Positions 16,060-53,690 of a stretch of 64,000 bases of DNA are shown in pieces. Each line of letters opens with the position of its first letter. Position 1 is the first letter of the stretch. The notes under the pieces are model-generated. The model was not told the DNA's origin. It was given only the letters and a program-made list of their open reading frames with translations, and made no database searches. The translations under genes were made by a program, and so were the position numbers. The stretch is from positions 186,001-250,000 of the forward strand of contig MCGE01000044.1 of NCBI GenBank assembly GCA_002105175.1, written 5' to 3'. The DNA comes from Absidia repens (taxonomy: Eukaryota; Mucoromycota; Mucoromycetes; Mucorales; Cunninghamellaceae).

Positions 16060-16545
16060 ACTAATCTAAAGGAGGACGATGGTAAAGAGGGACAAGTATA
16101 TGGTACAAAAGGATGCGTATTTTTTTGATTGGTGCATACAAACGGAATCTCTTGTAACAAGCATAAAAAGGAGCTGAATGGGTCTTTTTTCAGTGAAGCA
16201 AGTAAAAAAGAAACAAATTTTACTGAACAGTATTAATTCAGATGTAAATACAAACTATGGACAAACTAACACAAAGCTAAGCTAATGGAGTCATCCAATG
16301 GTGGTTCTAAATCCTAGATCCAAAATGAAAGGGTTTCCCCATGCATCTTGTAATCCCTGAGCTGAAAACGCTTCTAAACTAGTCCTAACACTAATCTAAA
16401 TCCATAATGACTCTATAAAAGTTGAATGGGGAAAAAAAACAGAGGTGAATGAAGGAAAAAAAAAAAGAAAAATGGGACCCAGCAAATCAGATTACACGTG
16501 GACGGAATTTAAAATTTTCCCTCTGGTCTTTCTCTGCGTTGCGCT
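16060..16545 (-). mobile_element. R1 SINE-like repeat, copy B (subfamily 1)
   Basis: Antisense to the plus strand. Reading minus: a B-box-like ATTTTAAATTCCGTCCACGTG (about 16494-16514), a pyrimidine tract (16430-16475), then the body with TTCAGCTCAGGGATTACAAG and GGGGAAACCCTTTCATTTTG (about 16323-16385). The 3' side carries degenerate modules to about 16060. It lies between the small secreted protein gene and the 3' end of ERO1. Confidence 0.65.
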
Positions 16546-29759: not shown

Positions 29760-30190
29760 GAGTCTTGAGAGCGACTAATGGGACATTTTTCATTGAAGTA
29801 TATACAAAGATACATGTTTTATTTCGCAGTAGGTATAAACTATGGACAGGCTAAAATTAAACTAGACTAATCAAGACTCTAAAAAGCCAACAAATGGTGA
29901 TCCCAAATCCTAAATTCAAAATGAAAGGGAGTCCCCATGCATCTTGTCATCCCTGATCTGAAAACGCCTTTAAACTAGACCTGAACCTAATCTAAGATTG
30001 CCATAGCCTCAATGAAGTTGAATGGCGAACGAAAGAAAGAAAAAAAAAAGAAGGAAAGAAAAGAAAGACGCAAAGAAAGATGGGGGAGAAAAGAAAAATC
30101 ACATGGGCGGCATTTGAAACCTGGCAGAAGTTTATCGCATGTGAGAATAGGTTAGAAAAATTCTTTGGTTCAACGATTCTTCCAAGTGAA
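29760..30190 (-). mobile_element. R1 SINE-like repeat, copy C (subfamily 1)
   Basis: Minus strand: B-box-like GGTTTCAAATGCCGCCCATG (about 30103-30122) preceded by an R1-like head (30123-30190). A pyrimidine tract (30030-30095) and the body with CATGGGGACTCCCTTTCATT follow. An ATAAAACATG-type module (about 29815) and a GTCCCATTAGTCG module (about 29778) form the 3' side. It lies just downstream of the hydrolase gene. Confidence 0.65.
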
Positions 30191-37739: not shown

Positions 37740-38420
37740 TAAAATCGCAGCAAACTGTCTCTCAGAAAACGACAGAAAGATTTCAAATTCCGCACACGTG
37801 AATATTTACTTGGTGTCAATTTTTATTTTTTTTCCTCTTTCTTTTCTTTTTCCTTTTTTTCTTTCTTTGATTCTTCACAATTGTGGCTCCTATGGAGTAA
37901 CGGTGAACTTAGATTAGTGTCAGGACTAGTTTAGAAGGGATTTCAGCTCAGGGATAACAGGATGCATGGGGAAACCCTTCCACCATTTTGGATCCAGGAT
38001 TTAGAACCACCCATTAGTTTATCTTTTGGAGCCTTCCTTAGTTTAGTTTGCATATAGTTTGTATCTACATCTGAATAAAATATGACTCTCTTTATATATT
38101 TAAATGAAAAATGTCCCAAACGTCTTTCTCATTCATTGTACAAGAGATCGCTTTCAAAATCGCATCCTTTTAGATCTATAGTAGTTGCTTCAAGTAACAG
38201 TATCCCAGTCATCTTTCGCAATTCTCTTGTACTATACAATAATTTAGATCCATTTTTACATTCGCCCCTTTAAATTAGTATTGTCCCAACTTCATATTTT
38301 CTCATGCTACCTTCAAGAGATCCCATTGTGACAATATGAGCGTCATGACTTTAGTGTCAATATATACCAAGGTGTTTCAATAAGATATGTATGAACGTAT
38401 ATATATACTTTCTACTAATC
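37740..38420 (+). mobile_element. R1 SINE-like repeat, copy H (subfamily 1)
   Basis: B-box-like ATTTCAAATTCCGCACACGTG (about 37780-37800), a pyrimidine tract (37818-37870), and a body with GATTTCAGCTCAGGGATAAC and GGGGAAACCCTTCCACCATT. CTACATCTGAATAAAATATG ends the core near 38082. The 3' modules repeat the layout of copy G, including the motif TGTCCCAAACGTCTTTCTCA and a TTTCAATAAGATATG module at about 38375. Confidence 0.65.
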
Positions 38421-38799: not shown

Positions 38800-39500
38800 C
38801 AAAGTATGGTTTATAAAAAAAGAAAAATAATTTATTGAAGCATATTGGTAAATACTGATCCTAAAGACGACGGGTTCATTGCAACAAGGGGATTGAATTG
38901 ACGTAGCATGACGAAGACTAATGTGATATTTGATGAATGGTCAACACTAATCTATAGTGCCACTGGTTAAAATAGAATAAATATACTGTACTGTACAGCA
39001 GAGTGCAAGGCATGAAGAAGACCAACGGGATCTATTTTATTAAAGTATAACATCAATGATCAACACTAATCAAGGCGGGGTTGGTAGTATTAAAAAAAGG
39101 ATCAATTGTACAAGACTATTAAGACATTTATGTATTGGAGCAAGTAAAGGAGACGTATTTTATTCAGATGTAGACACAAAACTAGTACTAAACTAAAACT
39201 AAATTAAGCTAATGAAGGCTCCAAAAGGCCAACTAATGGGGGGTTTGTAAATCTTGAATCCAAAATGAAAGGGTTTCGCCATGCATGTTGCCAACCCTGA
39301 GCCGAAACCCCTTCTAAACTAGCCTTGATACTAATCTAAGTCCATCATGACCTCAAAAAGGTCGAATGGCGAACAGTTGAAAGAAAAAAAAAAGAAAAAG
39401 GAAGAGGCAAAAAGGAAAATGGGAGAAAATAAAAATGCGTGAGCGGAATGTGAAAAATCTTCGGGGAGATGGTTTGCCAGGCGTTACAGCTTTTCAACTT
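38800..39500 (-). mobile_element. R1 SINE-like repeat, copy E (subfamily 1), adjacent to the Fanzor 3' end
   Basis: Minus strand: B-box-like TTTTTCACATTCCGCTCACGC (about 39436-39456), a pyrimidine tract (39376-39420), and a body with GGTTTCGGCTCAGGGTTGGC and GGCGAAACCCTTTCATTTTG. TTTATT-type modules lie on the plus strand near 39160, 39035 and 38830. Its 5' end is only about 230 nt from the Fanzor stop codon. It is in inverted orientation relative to copy H. Confidence 0.6.
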
Positions 39501-39732
39501 GAATTTGAGAGGGAGTGTAAATGGTTTTAGACGATGGCAAATAAAGTTGGGAAGGGAAGTAAAATAAATTGGGATGAAGGGAAAAGGTAATTGGGACAGG
39601 AGGCAAAAGTAGGTGAGACAAACAGGTGAGCCAAGATGAGAGTAAAGGAAAGTGTGAGTCCAAACGAAATATCTTTGTGTTTCATTTTCTTGTAACTTAC
39701 GTGTATACATCAACACATATTTGTTATGTGGA
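39480..39732 (-). other. Fanzor 3' flank: candidate guide-RNA / element-end region
   Basis: These 250 nt separate the Fanzor stop from R1 copy E. On the minus strand the segment is pyrimidine-rich (39530-39650) and contains no other gene. In characterised TnpB and Fanzor elements the guide RNA (omega RNA) is transcribed from the 3' end of the gene and the adjacent terminal sequence, so this is the place to look. I could not define a stem-loop or terminal inverted repeat by eye. The assignment is positional inference only. Confidence 0.25.
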
Positions 39733-40658
39733 TTATTGTTCAGTGGTCGGTCTTGCCAACAGCCCAGGGCGTCTTCCAGCAGTGACAAGGTTCATAAAAG
39801 CGGCGCGCAAATTCCGAGATGCATTGGTGTCCCGTTGCCACACAGTGTTACAGCGACGACACGCTAACACTGCGTACATACGTTTCGCCTGTTCACCAGG
39901 TCGGGTAATCACCGCGTTCGTGAGCTTTCTGTGACCACATTTTGAGCATACTTGCGACGTACGATGTTCATCCATATTCACAAAAACAAGTTTCCCAGAC
40001 TTGTCCGCCTTTGACAAAAGATGTCGACACTTGTCAGCAAGGGATCCTTCGCCTTTTTTGTTTCTGCCGAACTTTGCGTCGCCGAAAACCACAATCGGTA
40101 CCTTGTCTTTGTCATTGTTTATGGGAGCCTTTTTCCATTTCCTATGTATCAGAAATATGTACAACAGATGTTATTATGCCTTGCATATACATTTTTAAAT
40201 CAAATAAACTTGCCTAAGCTTCGGCGGCGGCGGAGGAAGAGGAGGTGGATCGTCAGTATCGTCAGACCTTGTTCGTCGTCGTCTTCTTTGTCGTGTCTGG
40301 CCAATATTTGATGATCTTTCCATGGCACCTGGTGGAGGTCTGTACTTGTAGCCGCCATCAATCAACACATTCACCAATTCGGCGTCCATCTTTTGTCTTC
40401 CTTGGTAATTGGCGAACTGCAGACCGAGAATAGCCTCTTGCCCATAAAATTCAGTCAAAGGACCTAGCGCTTGTAATGATGATTGAATGTATGCCTGTAT
40501 CCCTTCCAAATCAGTGGTTTTGTTTGTCGTTATTTGCGCCTCCACAGTACGAATTGCATCAGTTTTCAACATGTTGATTTTGTTGGACGTTTGTCTGAAG
40601 CCTGCACGAGTATAATATTCGATAGAGGATATACGTCGAATTTCATGACCTTAACACA

Positions 40659-40695
<37 letters not shown>

Positions 40696-43600
40696 TTAGA
40701 ATGTCGTCTGTCTGCCATTAGATGTCCTTTTCAATTACTCTCTTGTTCGTGGTCAGTATCGACTTGAGCATCAGCATCAGCGTGGGCGGCATCATCAGCG
40801 TGGGCGGCAACATCAGCGTGGGCGGCATCATCATCTTGGGCGGCATCATCATCTTGGGCGGCATCATCATCTTGGGCGGCATCATCATCTTGGGCGGCAT
40901 CATCATCTTGGGCAGCTCCTAGCACCGATATTAGTAAATAAACAAAAGAAAAAAAGAAAAAGTCAATACATAAACAATAGTTCTTGTAGAAAACCACCAT
41001 AGCCACTTACCCTCCTGTTCCACTGCGTAATTGTAAACGTCATCACTTGAACCATTGCTAGCCACATAGATTGAATTCATACCAGGATCTACACCCCACA
41101 CATTCAAATACGGGAATTCCCACGCTTGGAAGTCTTCAGGTTGCAAATCAGGAAGAGCAGCATCATTTCGAATCGGCTTGTCGAAAGGGATTGATACAGA
41201 AAATCCGTTCGTCACGATGTACTTCGCAAATATCATCCCATTCCCTTTTCTGATTTTGTCAACGTTGAGAATGTTCGTCAATGTTTCATCGCCATGGATA
41301 TATTGTGTGAGGCCCACTGATCGAAGGATTTGCCCCATGGATGTATTGTCGATTTTGATGCATTTCTTTGTGTAGGACGGTTTCGGCACCAAGTTGTAAA
41401 CTTGTTGCTTTTTCATCAAGTGATCGACTCCAGGTGTGAAGCATCTTGGTAACAAATCCTGGTGGTGTTCAGGGTCCTGTAAGTATTCAACAGAATGAAG
41501 AATTTGCTGGCGAGTGTTGGCGATGGTGTTTTGTAAGGATGTAAATGACAAGTCCGACAGGTACGATAATTGTTGGCGGTCAAGGTTGTCGTTTGTCGGT
41601 ATAATTTGTTGTATTGTTTTTGCCAATTTTGACCGTCGGCGTCGACCTATTCTTGAGTTTTCATCAAGTCCACGTACTACTTCAAAGCACCAAGTGCGAG
41701 GAACTACGGTCTGTACTGGGTTTACTGCATTTGCGGTGTCGATATTGTGTTGGTCAAAAGCGCGGACAATGTTATAACCATACTTCGTGAAGATATCGCA
41801 ATGGCGAGAAATATATGCAGTTGACAGTTGCGTAGTCGAATTGTCTAGCAATGTTGCCGGTGCCCCCGCCTGTTGACAATAGTTGATCAAATTATTCAGC
41901 AAATGACGATTTCCAAGTTGATCGTTGTCGAAGTATTGTCGTTGAGCTTCCAAAAATTGGCGATGTGGGTTGGTGTATGTATCCTGACGAGCGCCGAGAT
42001 CATCAAGTAAGGGCCGTACCTCCATAATAGCAAGATCCAAGGAGTCAAGAAGTTCTTGCGTTTCCTGGTTGATGTTATCTGCGCCATCCACTTGCTGTTC
42101 CATCATCGTTTGCAAAGATGTCATCACACCGTTCACCATGCTGTCATTCCATCGTTCGTCGTTTAGCTGGTGTTGGAAACCGAAGTGATTTGAGATATTC
42201 AATAGCAATTGGGTTGAAGCTTGGTACAGACGAAGCAGTTCGTGGAGTCTGGTGGATAATTGGATCAAAGAGGCAACAATCGTGGGATCCATGGCTTCCG
42301 CTACTTCGGTTGACATTGTTCCAATTCTTGAGATAGTGATTGTGATGACTGACCGAAGGCCGGTTTCCCTGTTCATGATACGTCCATGAAGAACACCGTA
42401 TGCATTTTCAACTTCTTTTCCAAGTGAATCAGTTTGTTCTTGTAGAGCAGCCATATTATAAACACACAAAAGGTCCACTTTCCCATCATCTAGTACAGCA
42501 TTTACATCGTCTTTTATTTCGTCAGTAATGCCAGGTTGAGACAAAGCATCAGAAGACTCGATTGCAATATCCGCATTGTTGACCAGACTTGCTAGGATGT
42601 GAAGCCCCAATACGTTGCAAGTTTTTTCAATCGAATCCTATAATACAATACATGGCGGTAAGTATCAAACATTGACCTCTGTATACTTTTATTGTATTGT
42701 ATTACTTACCTTTTGTTGTTCCTGTTCTAATATTTGTTCTTCAGGATCCTGCTGCTGGAGAAGTTGCTGTTGCTGTTGTTGTTGATGCTGTTGGTTCTGG
42801 CGTTGCACCATTCGCTGACGAAGACGTAAAGAAAATAAATTTGACATCCACTGCGTAAAGTCCTCAACAATTCGATTTGTAAATTTGGTCGCATATTGGG
42901 CCAACATTGGAGTCAGAATATTCGTATACGCTTTTCCATGAATTTTTTGTACAAGAAAAGCTTGTCGGGACGCTTCTGATGGATTCAGTTGCTGATACAC
43001 ATTGTCGATATTTGTCGCCAAATCCATGCTGATTGAATTGTTGATGGTGATGTTGCTGCCAGTGACTTTTTGAAAGACAGCATAAAAAAAACTCATCGTA
43101 AAGAGCTGTTTTGGTATGGGTTGGTGGTTCGTCAAAGAGTGATATAGATAAAATGTAATAAATAGGTGCACTTTTATGACTGTATCCCGAGTGTACGAAA
43201 CAACGTCGCTGATTCCCTGTAGAATTTGTTGGTGATGATCCTGGTTTTCAATCCGCAGCAATGATTTCAGTCCCTGTTTCCGGCAAACCGTCGTCGTTTT
43301 ACCCAATTCTTGTTGTACTTGTTGTAGTCGAGTCTGTTTTCGGAAGGGGCATTTTCGACTTGTTGATCGTGAATGAGTGGTTGCTGTTTCAGAGCTACCA
43401 TGTTTAAGGCAAACCGGGCAAGGACGGACTGATTTCTTTTGACCAAGTTTTTTTCGCATTAAAGAGCCACCCCGTTTGGCCACCTTTTCGAGAGTACCTT
43501 GTTTGCGCTTACGCTTGGACCCAGCCAACTGTCTTGAAGTTGAGCCGCGAGTTGATAATGAGGAGGCATCACCGTCGCTGTTATCACTGTCGGTGTCATC

Positions 43601-43864
43601 ATCGTTTTCCGCACGTCTTTGTTCATCTTCAGCTTTTTGTGTAAAAAAAGAAAGATTAGTAAGATTACCTTGTTTCTCATACTAATTTGTTTAGCACTTA
43701 CCATGACGCAGGTTCGCTTGCTGTCGTTTCCACCGTTTTTTGTACATAATGATATCAAAAACTGTCATTCCTTCATAAGTTGTTAGGGGTTGAATAACAT
43801 CATCCTGTGTCATATCCATCAATCTAAGCAAGTCTTCCTCGATAATCAATTGATTGGCGGCCAT
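39733..43864 (-). CDS. Fanzor: eukaryotic TnpB-family RNA-guided nuclease, 6 exons
   Basis: Exons 43864-43702, 43632-42710, 42637-41011, 40918-40739, 40649-40214 and 40141-39733 close in phase to 1245 residues. Fanzors are eukaryotic TnpB relatives that cut DNA under RNA guidance. The RuvC-like nuclease is C-terminal. WGVDPGMNS holds the first Asp (879). VNMDEHRTSQVCSKCG holds the Glu (1168) and first zinc pair (Cys 1175, 1178). CRRC (1204, 1207) completes the ribbon, and QRDTNASRNL holds the last Asp (1214). The usual TnpB Glu position reads VVFGDAKFG, without Glu, as described for the rearranged Fanzor site. An N-terminal CPVC...H...C finger (126-149) and basic clusters could bind nucleic acid. 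Exon 4 encodes AAQDDD repeats. Intron 5 is GC-AG. No frame break was seen. Confidence 0.9.
40636..40738 (-). other. Fanzor intron 4 with long poly-T tract
   Basis: The donor GTAATT at 40738 follows GAG-A, and the acceptor TTAAG lies at 40654-40650. Both splice in phase 1, giving a Ser codon that joins the acidic repeat exon to HEIRRISSIEYY. On the coding strand the intron carries more than 30 consecutive T (plus strand A, 40660-40693). The exact acceptor is supported by the conserved reading frame immediately downstream. Confidence 0.7.
40757..40917 (-). repeat. 15-bp coding minisatellite inside the Fanzor gene
   Basis: Tandem GCCCAAGATGATGAT units, about five exact copies then degenerate GCCCACGCTGATGTT-type units, make up most of exon 4. 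They encode Ala-Gln-Asp-Asp-Asp followed by Ala-His-Ala-Asp variants. The repeat interrupts the nuclease between the first RuvC strand and the conserved RRISSIEYY segment, so it should form a flexible acidic loop. Length polymorphism is expected from its structure (inference). Confidence 0.9.
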
Positions 43865-44424
43865 ACTGATGATAGGGACCTGGAGGTATTGGTGTTTGTT
43901 AAAAAGAAAAGAAAACAAAACGCTGTTGCGGCTAAATTTGTGATTTTAGTCCAACTGGATTGTTCCTTGGGCGGAATTTGAAATGACTTGTTCCTGAATC
44001 GGACAAAAATAGAATTGAGAGTAGTGAGCACCAGAACTTTTGTAGATAAAGTCCAACTGTAGAGAAAGTTTATAAAAAATAAACTTGAAAGAGTAAATAA
44101 AATAAAAAAGAAAAGTATTGACCTTTGTTGGTTCAATAAAAATAAGTGTATAACACACAGTAAAAATAAAAAAGAGGACTTGTAGTCACAAAAAATAAAA
44201 GAAAGTTTCTATATAGACGATAGAAACAAAATAAAAATAAGACAGTGGTTTGGTGGTTAAAAGCCTTTGTACTGAATTTTATAAAAAAGATTGAGATAAA
44301 TATATGATAATAGATAGCTTAAGAAAAAAGAGAATTGGCGGGGGAAAGGTGGGGTATTTATACTAAAAAATAAAGTGGCGGCGAGTGCCGAACGTGATAA
44401 AAAAATATAAAAATAAAAATGATG

Positions 44425-44680
44425 ATCGACCAGTATCCTAGACCGGATAGGAAATCAGCGGCTTCCTGTTTTCGTCCAGTTCGATACTTGATTTCAAAGT
44501 CATATTCAGCCAAGTATTGGATCCATCTTGCTACAATGCCAGATACTTTGGGTGATTGTACCAACCATCGTAAAGGTGAGTGGTCTGATATGACAGTGAA
44601 TTTTTTGCCAAGTAAATAAGGCCTGAATAGTTGCAGGCTCCATACTAGGGCGAGACATTCCAATTTAGTAGCACCGTAGT
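44425..44680 (-). pseudogene. Ty3/gypsy retrotransposon RNase H fragment
   Basis: The frame encodes NYGATKLECLALVWSLQLFR, then FTVISDHSPLRWLVQSPKV and YDFEIKYRTGRKQEAADFLS. This is the RNase H part of a Ty3/gypsy polymerase, including the conserved TD-like (SDH) and ADxLS motifs. A stop lies just upstream in frame, and the tail runs into low-complexity sequence. No integrase, protease or reverse transcriptase palm is seen nearby, so it is a small relic. It lies about 560 nt upstream of the Fanzor ATG. Confidence 0.8.
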
Positions 44681-44869
44681 TTTGTTGTCAATGGAAGATT
44701 CAGTTGATTTATATTTTTACAAATATACCCCAATCAGCTAATAGAGGAAGATATTGTATGAGTCATCTTTTTACAAACACCCCATTTCCCCTCCTCCCCG
44801 TTCATACGAGTATTCACAAATACAACATGTCTACTGTGAGTATTTCTCTTCCACAACACAACGCTACTA

Positions 44870-45035
44870 TACCCTACAAAGCAATATAATACATACTCTA
44901 CAAAAACAAATCAACACATACCCTACAAACAACACAACATATACCCTACAATATATAACAACACATATCCCTCAAAGAATAGTATATTTAACACGAAAAC
45001 AACACACGTATTCCACAAAAACAGCGTACACAAAT
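44870..45035 (+). repeat. Degenerate tandem repeat of an ACACATACCCTACAAAACA type
   Basis: Motifs such as ATACCCTACAAAGCA, ACATACTCTACAAAAACA, ACACATACCCTACAAACAAC, ATATACCCTACAATAT and ACACATATCCCTCAAAG recur every 22-30 nt. The unit is AC-rich and C-poor on the complementary strand. The array is short and imperfect, and no gene overlaps it. Confidence 0.5.
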
Positions 45036-45464
45036 ATTTTTTTCAAATGTGATTTTCTTTATTGCAGTGATATGATAAAATAGACGGTAATAGTGAAATA
45101 AGAGACAATATACTGTATAGTAACATAAGAGTTGAAGAGGATACTAACATTGCCTTCAACAAAACAGTACACTCATACTATTCTCTTATAGCACAACCTC
45201 CCCTGCTTCATACTGAAATGCTGCTGCGTCCGAGGTGATAATGGCATATCTTCGCTTCAGGAAGCTCCCCAGAAGCTATTTAGTGGTAGTAGTTTTTTTT
45301 TTTTTTTTTTTTTTTTCTGAAGTAAAAATGTGGAGGTGTTTCGAATGTTGCGTACAAAAAAAGAGACAGGTAACATCATCATCATCAAACAAAAAAGTCA
45401 TTTGGTTGGTTTCAATAGAAGATAGATTTTATTTATTTGTAATACCACAAGAGTACATACCAGC

Positions 45465-45507
<43 letters not shown>

Positions 45508-45509
45508 AA

Positions 45510-45695
45510 AGTCCTGACTGAGCGCTGAACAACGACGGATGGGCCCCAAGGGGCTGCCCACCAAAGTGCGAAAGGGCGGAGGCTTTAATCCTATCCCATC
45601 AAAACCCACACTTTAATAAAAAAAACTGTGACACCCTGTAAATCGAAAGATTTCCAAAAGCTCCAGCGGAGCGCCAGAGCGTTTATTAATTTAAT
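45510..45695 (-). repeat. Repeat R2, copy 2 (inverted)
   Basis: The reverse complement reads ACGCTCTGGCGCTCCGCTGG, then TCGATTTACAGGGTGTCACA, AGTGTGGGTTTTGATGGGAT and GGTGGGCAGCCCCTTGGGGC. It is collinear with 28010-28205. A poly-A tract of more than 35 nt (45466-45506) abuts one end, which may be a retroposition tail or a local expansion. Confidence 0.65.
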
Positions 45696-45944
45696 ATACT
45701 TAAAGAAAGAGGGGTAAACCATTAGGCACGTAAAAACATATTGGGAGAGGTGTCTTCAAAAAGAGATCGGTTTAAAATAAAATATACGATTGTCTAAACC
45801 ATATTATCATTTAGTCTAAACTATGTTGAATAAAATGTCCAAAATTGAAAGCTAAATCGTCTCGAGCGGAGTTTATTCTCGTCTAAAAAAAAAAAAAAAA
45901 AACGTCTCAAGTTCAACCGGAAAACCTGTATTCTTCAAACCCTC

Positions 45945-53324: not shown

Positions 53325-53690
53325 ATGCATGGGACTTTTTTTTTTCATTGAAGTAGAAAATGAGAGAGATTTTATTCAGATGGAGATAACAAAACTATGG
53401 ACAGAACTAAAACTAAGCTAAGCTAATGACAGCCCATAAATGATCTGATCGTTCTAAATCCTAGTACCAAAATGAAAGGGTTTCCCCATGCATGTTGTCA
53501 TCCCTGAGCTGAAACCCCTTCTAAACTAGTCCTAATACTAAGCCAAGTCCATCATGACCTCAAAGAAGTTGAATGATGAAAAAAAAAAAAAAAAAAAAGG
53601 AAATGGAAAGAAAGAGAGAGAGGGAAAAAAAGGGGGTGGGGGGGGGAAATAAAAAATCTCGCGTGCGGGAATTGAAATCTTTTGATGCTG
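53325..53690 (-). mobile_element. R1 SINE-like repeat, copy F (subfamily 1)
   Basis: Minus strand: B-box-like ATTTCAATTCCCGCACGCG (about 53661-53679), a pyrimidine tract (53581-53640), then one of the best preserved bodies with GGTTTCAGCTCAGGGATGAC and GGGGAAACCCTTTCATTTTG (about 53470-53520). TCCATCTGAATAAAATCTC ends the core near 53365. It is located between the convergent kinase and O-fucosyltransferase-like genes. Confidence 0.7.

Follow-up and report, generated by a model that had tools for sequence, protein, structure and literature searches.

A predicted Fanzor1 nuclease of enlarged type in a multicopy Tc1/mariner-type transposon of the fungus Absidia repens

Here we describe a 64,000-nucleotide stretch of the Absidia repens genome (NCBI GenBank assembly GCA_002105175.1, contig MCGE01000044.1, positions 186,001 to 250,000; hereafter the window, in whose coordinates its features are given), which contains a long, spliced gene for a putative Fanzor nuclease inside a transposon of about 6.4 kb. 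The gene is read on the minus strand from 43864 to 39733, in six exons. Exon 1 (43702..43864) begins with the start codon at 43864-43862, exon 2 (42710..43632) encodes a CPxC...C finger (from residue 126) and the beginning of a long N-terminal region, and exon 3 (41011..42637) encodes the remaining N-terminal region, the YIVTNGFSVSIPFD segment, which aligns with SpuFz1 (the Fanzor1 of Spizellomyces punctatus), and the RuvC-I motif DPG with D879. Exon 4 (40739..40918) corresponds to an acidic linker, (AAQDDD)n, derived from an 18-bp tandem repeat of variable length, exon 5 (40214..40649) to the stretch between RuvC-I and the zinc ribbon, with an Arg- and Pro-rich linker, and exon 6 (39733..40141) to E1168, the ribbon (PF07282, E 5.9e-10), D1214 and the stop codon. 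Joined in phase, these exons give 3738 nt, or 1245 residues plus the terminal stop, with no internal stops. A preliminary description, made from the letters alone, had proposed the same six in-phase exons and 1245 residues and had seen no stop or frameshift; splicing reproduced the former, and the joined reading frame was indeed open from start to stop. The introns measured 69, 72, 92, 89 and 72 nt, four being of the GT-AG type and the last of the GC-AG type (GCAAGT...TAG).

At the level of sequence, the gene model was supported by two independent lines of evidence. First, the terminal dinucleotides of all five introns were unchanged in each of the 11 genomic copies that hold the whole gene, and those of the last intron were also kept in an internally deleted twelfth copy. 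Exon 4 ranged from 144 to 252 nt across copies and was a multiple of 18 in all four copies with an open reading frame. Second, proteins of Cunninghamella blakesleeana could be aligned with the joined product. With residues 640-1245 as query (7999 candidates scored), two C. blakesleeana proteins (1037 and 1211 amino acids) were the only matches at E <= 0.001, both 39-40% identical and covering the whole queried stretch. One of them (P0001) begins near window residue 160; the other (P0002) extends to the N-terminus and also possesses the CPxC...CPF finger. D879, E1168, D1214 and the four ribbon cysteines are common to the window protein and both relatives. Removal of the linkers from the query brought in three more proteins, from Halteromyces radiatus (62% identity over 53% of the 509-residue query), from a fragment without a name and from Absidia cylindrospora. 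The Halteromyces protein terminates in HEGKWLSWFF, and the unspliced exon 3 of the window reads QEGKWLWWFS at that place; because the protein end matches this readthrough, the intron-3 donor seems to be conserved between the two genera.

Halteromyces and Cunninghamella belong to the Cunninghamellaceae (Mucorales), and the relatives found here all appear to be Mucorales fungi (Cunninghamella, Halteromyces and Absidia). A second protein search with a three-sequence alignment gave no match at E <= 0.01 (7999 candidates scored), probably, as we guess, due to low-complexity stretches filling the candidate list, and no relative was present among 106 pattern matches on viral contigs. NCBIfam searches with P0002 and P0005 placed TnpB families below their cut-offs, covering the ribbon part only. 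The precomputed annotation of P0001 and P0002 adds the family PF26935, which our own Pfam scan did not report.

The window protein contains D879 (VDPG), E1168 (DEHRTS) and D1214 (RDTNA) as catalytic residues, and ribbon cysteines C1175/C1178 and C1204/C1207, each at the number given in the preliminary description, which had also named the CPVC finger motif, found at residue 126. Its ribbon scored 39.6 bits against PF07282, for which the cut-off is 26.3. The marks of Fanzor proteins are a DPG at RuvC-I and a repositioned glutamate (PMC10711439; here and below, literature statements refer to the available portions of the cited papers). Both were found, as D879-P880-G881 and as E1168 six residues ahead of the first ribbon cysteine, C1175, and E1168 appears to be the repositioned Fanzor glutamate, unlike the usual TnpB RuvC-II position. 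A full-length profile of three proteins gave SpuFz1 (8gkh) as the top PDB match (E 1.6e-5), with four pieces in collinear order, of which only the ribbon piece scored well alone (15.7 bits). When a ribbon-free profile (A4, the part preceding the ribbon) was run against 177635 distinct PDB sequences, SpuFz1 was again at the top (E 0.0014, spanning profile columns 149-364), with the runner-up at 0.4. Thus, the Fanzor identity proposed earlier withstood the test that had been set for it, a match outside the zinc ribbon. The PDB search with the single window protein alone returned no Fanzor match.

Class assignment was also considered. Every part of the consensus of Bao and Jurka (2013), D-X(125,275)-[TS][TS]-X-X-[C4]-X(5,50)-RD (PMC3627910), was found in the window copy except the first spacing, which is 291 residues from D879 to T1171 rather than at most 275; this stretch contains the variable exon-4 linker, and we treated the first spacing as descriptive, not defining, later definitions resting on the DPG and the repositioned glutamate (PMC10711439). 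Fanzor2 proteins are close to TnpB, about 500 amino acids long and carried by IS607-type elements (PMC3627910, PMC10711439), whereas the window has a 1245-amino-acid protein in an element with terminal inverted repeats (TIRs), TA ends and a DDE_3 transposase tail. Published Fanzor1s are mostly 600-700 residues long, some reaching about 800 (PMC11423790, PMC10711439). Because the RuvC-I aspartate lies at residue 879 here and at 383 in SpuFz1 (D383; PMC11423790), about 500 additional residues precede the core, a region in which Pfam reported nothing above cut-off. For the large N-terminal expansion noted in the preliminary description, SpuFz1 is a better yardstick than the minimal TnpB. The gene thus reads as a Fanzor1 of enlarged type, about twice the usual length, and its product would be predicted to cleave DNA under the guidance of an omega-RNA.

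The vehicle of this gene, which had not been seen in the preliminary description, is a transposon at 39485..45930, delimited as the unit shared in the alignment of copies and bounded by 28-bp TIRs with TA at both ends. The left TIR (39485..39512, plus strand, TACAG...TTGAGA) adjoins the 3' end of the Fanzor gene, and the right TIR (45903..45930, minus strand) was placed by copy alignment and pattern search; their sequences are TACAGCTTTTCAACTTGAATTTGAGA(CG) and TACAGGTTTTCCGGTTGAACTTGAGACG, respectively. The TIR pattern had 52 matches in the genome (47.4 Mb, 79 contigs) at up to 3 mismatches, compared with 1 for the reversed control. PF07282 had 13 matches in the genome, 12 of which represented near-identical copies of one element, including that of the window; the thirteenth (C34:1923424) is a relic that has diverged (46% identity across 124 positions) and contains a TAG in frame. 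The copies align between the borders at 39485 and 45930, some being truncated, interrupted or supplied with extra internal sequence. The gene region is complete in eleven; in the twelfth (C15b), a deletion removes about 40480-44020. Within the fetched stretches, the left TIR was found in 12/12 copies and the right TIR in 8/12, the gaps being C25 (which ends with its contig), C3 (near a contig end), C32 (a TIR only about 22 kb off) and C56 (none in 20 kb). All eight copies with both TIRs had TA at both ends, the combination of TIRs and TA target duplication that characterizes Tc1/mariner elements. When the flanks of copy C34a were joined, they matched copies of a repeat at other places, and of the 41 matches listed, 20 continued across the joint for at least 29 nt, as empty sites should. 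As a separate observation, five of the 12 copies (C15a, C25, C79, C8 and C12) had small indels at a common position that follows TACAG, slightly inward of the left end (about 39490-39496 in the window).

Over the gene, the 11 full-gene copies were 97.9-99.9% identical to one another. Four of them were open from start to stop, namely those of the window (1245 residues), C25 (1251), C8 (1233) and C56 (1245). Two sets of copies (C25, C12 and C56; C8 and C26) were 99.8-99.9% identical and had different flanks, which indicated very recent movement.

Remains of a transposase were found near the right end. A relic at 45718..45777 (plus strand) matches DDE_3 C-termini and holds the last ~20 codons plus stop of a Tc1/mariner-type transposase; the same codons and stop were present in eight further right ends, one of which (C5) has no Fanzor gene. 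Two Fanzor-less TIR elements, at C63:42091-42847 (L035, 757 bp) and C67:486391-487158 (L036, 768 bp), have the right end of the Fanzor element on both sides. The 757-bp element contains an open reading frame of 133 amino acids, whose end is 50% identical to the C-terminus of the frame containing YMPPYSPFLNPIEECWAKIK, a stretch typical of DDE_3 transposases, which are of the Tc1/mariner (IS630) type. At three places in the genome, C-termini of this kind lie next to DDE_3 matches. Since Pfam gave no family above cut-off for the 133-residue frame, its identity rests on these C-terminus matches. Both short elements also seem to carry the two ends of a transposase gene without its middle; this remnant is open in C63 and broken in C67. 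The DDE_3 transposase sought within the Fanzor element, or sharing its ends, was present as the relic C-terminus of 20 residues only. Because these ~20 codons and the stop remain, the Fanzor element appears to be a non-autonomous Tc1/mariner-type transposon from which almost the entire transposase has been lost. With 41 genomic matches to PF13358, a supply of transposase in trans is plausible. A search for PF03184 (DDE_1) gave no match, its controls likewise being without a match.

Upstream of the gene lies a long terminal repeat (LTR; 43925..44413, minus strand), which is oriented towards the Fanzor gene, lacks about 97 bp of the full LTR and contains TATAAATA at 44362. It is followed by an RNase H fragment (44437..44687, minus strand; PF17917, E 5.5e-19), a retroelement relic. 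The sequence at 43925-44413 had at least 32 further matches at >=94%, several of which formed pairs of like orientation with a spacing of 5-7 kb (C1, C8, C56 and C45), as is typical of LTRs, and the LTR lay directly upstream of the gene in all 11 full-gene copies. Because an RNase H domain of PF17917 lies beyond the LTR, the source retroelement was probably of the Ty3/gypsy type. Gypsy/Ty3 insertions have already been described in SpuFz1 loci, one kind being read there as chance transposition (PMC10432273). In the window, the LTR and the RNase H relic appear to occupy the place expected for the Fanzor promoter, and the LTR is a candidate for that promoter. On the Fanzor strand, 498 nt without an ATG follow the TATAAATA site up to the Fanzor start, and of 11 copies inspected, the nine with both anchors in close proximity had an ATG-free leader; the exceptions were C32, with no exact TATA string nearby, and C3, for which the start anchor could not be located. 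A single ATG is present in the full LTR of C5, inside the ~97 bp that the Fanzor-linked LTR lacks.

On the other side of the gene, a candidate omega-RNA scaffold could be placed at 39487..39600 (minus strand), between the stop codon and the left end, with the guide presumably coming from the flank below 39485. Read on the Fanzor strand, the terminal 116 nt of the element folded with z -2.06 (8 of 200 shuffles were equally good), and Rfam gave no match in the window at gathering scores. An old Fanzor-less left end (L034, C78:72564-72654), 75% identical over 91 bp, has retained a portion of this region and lies beside a copy of a high-copy interspersed repeat; its stretch near the candidate omega-RNA is apparently better conserved than the surroundings. 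With regard to the putative target-adjacent motif (TAM), the two bases outside the TA were A/T in 20/20 positions on the predicted TAM side (ten right ends) and in 12/22 on the guide side (11 sites, with C32 and C34a entered as one). Among Fanzor-less ends, that of C5 fits (AT) and was excluded from the count, and the C63 element has CT on one side.

The insertion in the window is flanked, outside the element, by the interspersed repeat with its tail motif (39112..39456, plus strand); further repeat copies lie at about 16322-16515, 29918-30120, 37780-37986 and 53469-53678, among others. The 21-nt tail motif (near CACGTGGGCGGAATTTGAAAT) had 2321 matches in the genome at up to 3 mismatches (control 1). 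Most Fanzor copies were inserted in or beside the repeat tail, in either orientation. The repeat core was at most 200 bp from the insertion in 8/12 copies and at most 233 bp in 10/12 (C32 and C34a, which have a common left flank, taken separately), compared with a background (positions no farther than 200 bp from a core) of 1.6% in the flanks and 5.3% in the window; the motif was at most 60 bp away in 7/12 (background 0.8-1.8%). The right flank was available for eight of the 12 copies, and the pattern was noticed first and then counted on the same copies. We rejected the idea that a guide directs homing to a single fixed site in the repeat, as the left-TIR flanks differ between copies except for C32 and C34a.

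Based on these observations, we consider it highly probable that this Fanzor1 is cargo of a non-autonomous Tc1/mariner-type transposon, started from an LTR and spliced, whose omega-RNA-guided cutting, a predicted step, would aid retention or spread of the element. The element, with TIRs starting CAG, TA ends and a transposase tail only, would most likely be mobilized by a transposase encoded elsewhere in the genome. Transcription would probably start in the captured LTR and run through the ATG-free leader, and the transcript would be spliced five times to give the 1245-residue protein. The omega-RNA may arise from the 250 nt between the stop codon and the left TIR, either as the 3' end of the mRNA or as a separate transcript, and would carry at its end a guide transcribed from the flank. 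The resulting ribonucleoprotein would cut an empty site adjoining the TAM, predicted to be WWTA, and repair from the filled copy after cutting would keep or spread the element.

Several findings weigh against this interpretation. The transposase relic is short, its 20 residues matching with E 8.9e-4, and no intact DDE_3 transposase with the TIRs of the Fanzor element (TACAGGTTTTC ends) was found. An ATG-free leader also arose in 109 of 2000 shuffles and is not significant alone, and the fold of the whole 276-nt 3' region (z 0.66, 143 of 200 shuffles as good) is not above chance. The flank asymmetry between the TAM and guide sides (Fisher p 0.0006; p 0.0019 with the eight linked right ends) speaks for the interpretation but concerns positions that were picked after the data were seen, and two of the ten right ends (the far end of C32, and C47) are not linked to a gene copy. 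Furthermore, 7/11 full-gene copies, read with the exon borders of the window, were not open and had frameshifts, and the ratio of nonsynonymous to synonymous differences (pN/pS) was 0.40-0.86 among the four open copies (small counts) and averaged 0.62 over all 55 pairs (range 0.29-1.91), which suggested weak constraint.

These interrupted frames, together with the internal deletion of the twelfth copy and pN/pS values up to 0.86 between open copies, would also fit a decaying transposon passenger, that is, a former Fanzor1 of a family no longer active, with the window copy open by chance or recency. Such decay is possible, and we regard it as unlikely. The nearly identical sets C25, C12 and C56, and C8 and C26, with their differing flanks, point to very recent movement, the splice sites are kept, and the length of exon 4 is a multiple of 18 bp in each of the four open copies. 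Copy identity and pN/pS together fit a recent spread under weak constraint, and the suggestion of the preliminary description that the window copy may still be functional is compatible with its open frame and this spread, yet most full-gene copies are not open.

The presence of the LTR directly upstream in every full-gene copy could suggest that the Fanzor gene was carried by an LTR retrotransposon through retro-transduction, and not by a DNA transposon. However, introns are kept in the 11 full-gene copies, and none of the 12 has lost an intron that its sequence still covers. The shared unit continues beyond the LTR to the TIRs with TA on both sides, and the further LTR matches listed (40 candidates scored) do not reach into the Fanzor gene. 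We consequently rejected this origin as very improbable, in view of the kept introns and shared TIRs. A domesticated host gene merely near transposon debris, as its large size, five introns and other long reading frames nearby might suggest, is hardly credible for this element family given the 12 dispersed copies and their shared ends.

If the Fanzor1 is indeed the cargo of the Tc1/mariner-type element, a more elaborate history can be imagined, which we offer tentatively and think rather doubtful. A Tc1/mariner element without its transposase would have taken up an oversized Fanzor1 run by a captured LTR, and insertions would be kept only with a WWTA TAM on the correct side. If this were true, the asymmetric flanks would be a genomic record of a Fanzor acting in its native host, and the tails of a repeat with more than 2000 motif copies would offer many equivalent, harmless targets. 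More generally, a conserved group of proteins near 1,000-1,250 residues that have their additional length ahead of the RuvC core would indicate how much enlargement the front half of the nuclease tolerates, and the enlarged N-terminal half may carry partner-binding or targeting functions. The near-identical, partly open copies could serve as a natural system for the role of Fanzor for its transposon in its own host, in which each insertion yields a concrete TAM and guide prediction.

In the available portions of the literature on Fanzor combined with omega-RNA or transposons, fungal mariner elements or LTR retrotransposons, neither a Fanzor as long as this one nor an LTR acting as a Fanzor promoter is mentioned, and a search combining Fanzor with Mucoromycota returned no paper. 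Comparison with known systems placed the window element close to several of them. SpuFz1, the top PDB match with and without the ribbon, has the same glutamate spacing (DExxTSxVC) and belongs to a multicopy element with inverted repeats. Its omega-RNA lies between the stop codon and the inverted repeat, where our candidate is also placed, and some of its loci contain Gypsy/Ty3 sequence, similar to the retroelement relic in the window; however, SpuFz1 has 638 amino acids in a single-ORF (open reading frame) locus of ~2.1 kb, versus 1245 amino acids, five introns and 6.4 kb here (PMC10432273). PpFz1 of Parasitella parasitica is likewise a Mucorales Fanzor1 with additional sequence inside RuvC, in its case a folded FRI insertion of ~100 residues that binds cyclophilin (PMC11423790), whereas the window protein, compared by description, has acidic-repeat and Arg/Pro-rich linkers and a far longer N-terminal region. 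MCi-2 of Mucor circinelloides, likewise from a Mucorales genome, resembles the window family in having eleven Fanzor copies with near identity along 6 kb, and differs in having no recognizable TIRs, duplications of 11-12 bp and a partial Crypton transposase (PMC3627910). PUl-4 of Bao and Jurka (2013) is also a Fanzor-only element with Mariner TIRs, TA duplications and no transposase; the transposase tail and LTR capture of the window are not mentioned for it in the available portion of that paper (PMC3627910). Overall, the observations confirm, by sequence, a Fanzor1 of enlarged size carried by a multicopy fungal transposon of the Tc1/mariner type, new in detail and known in kind.

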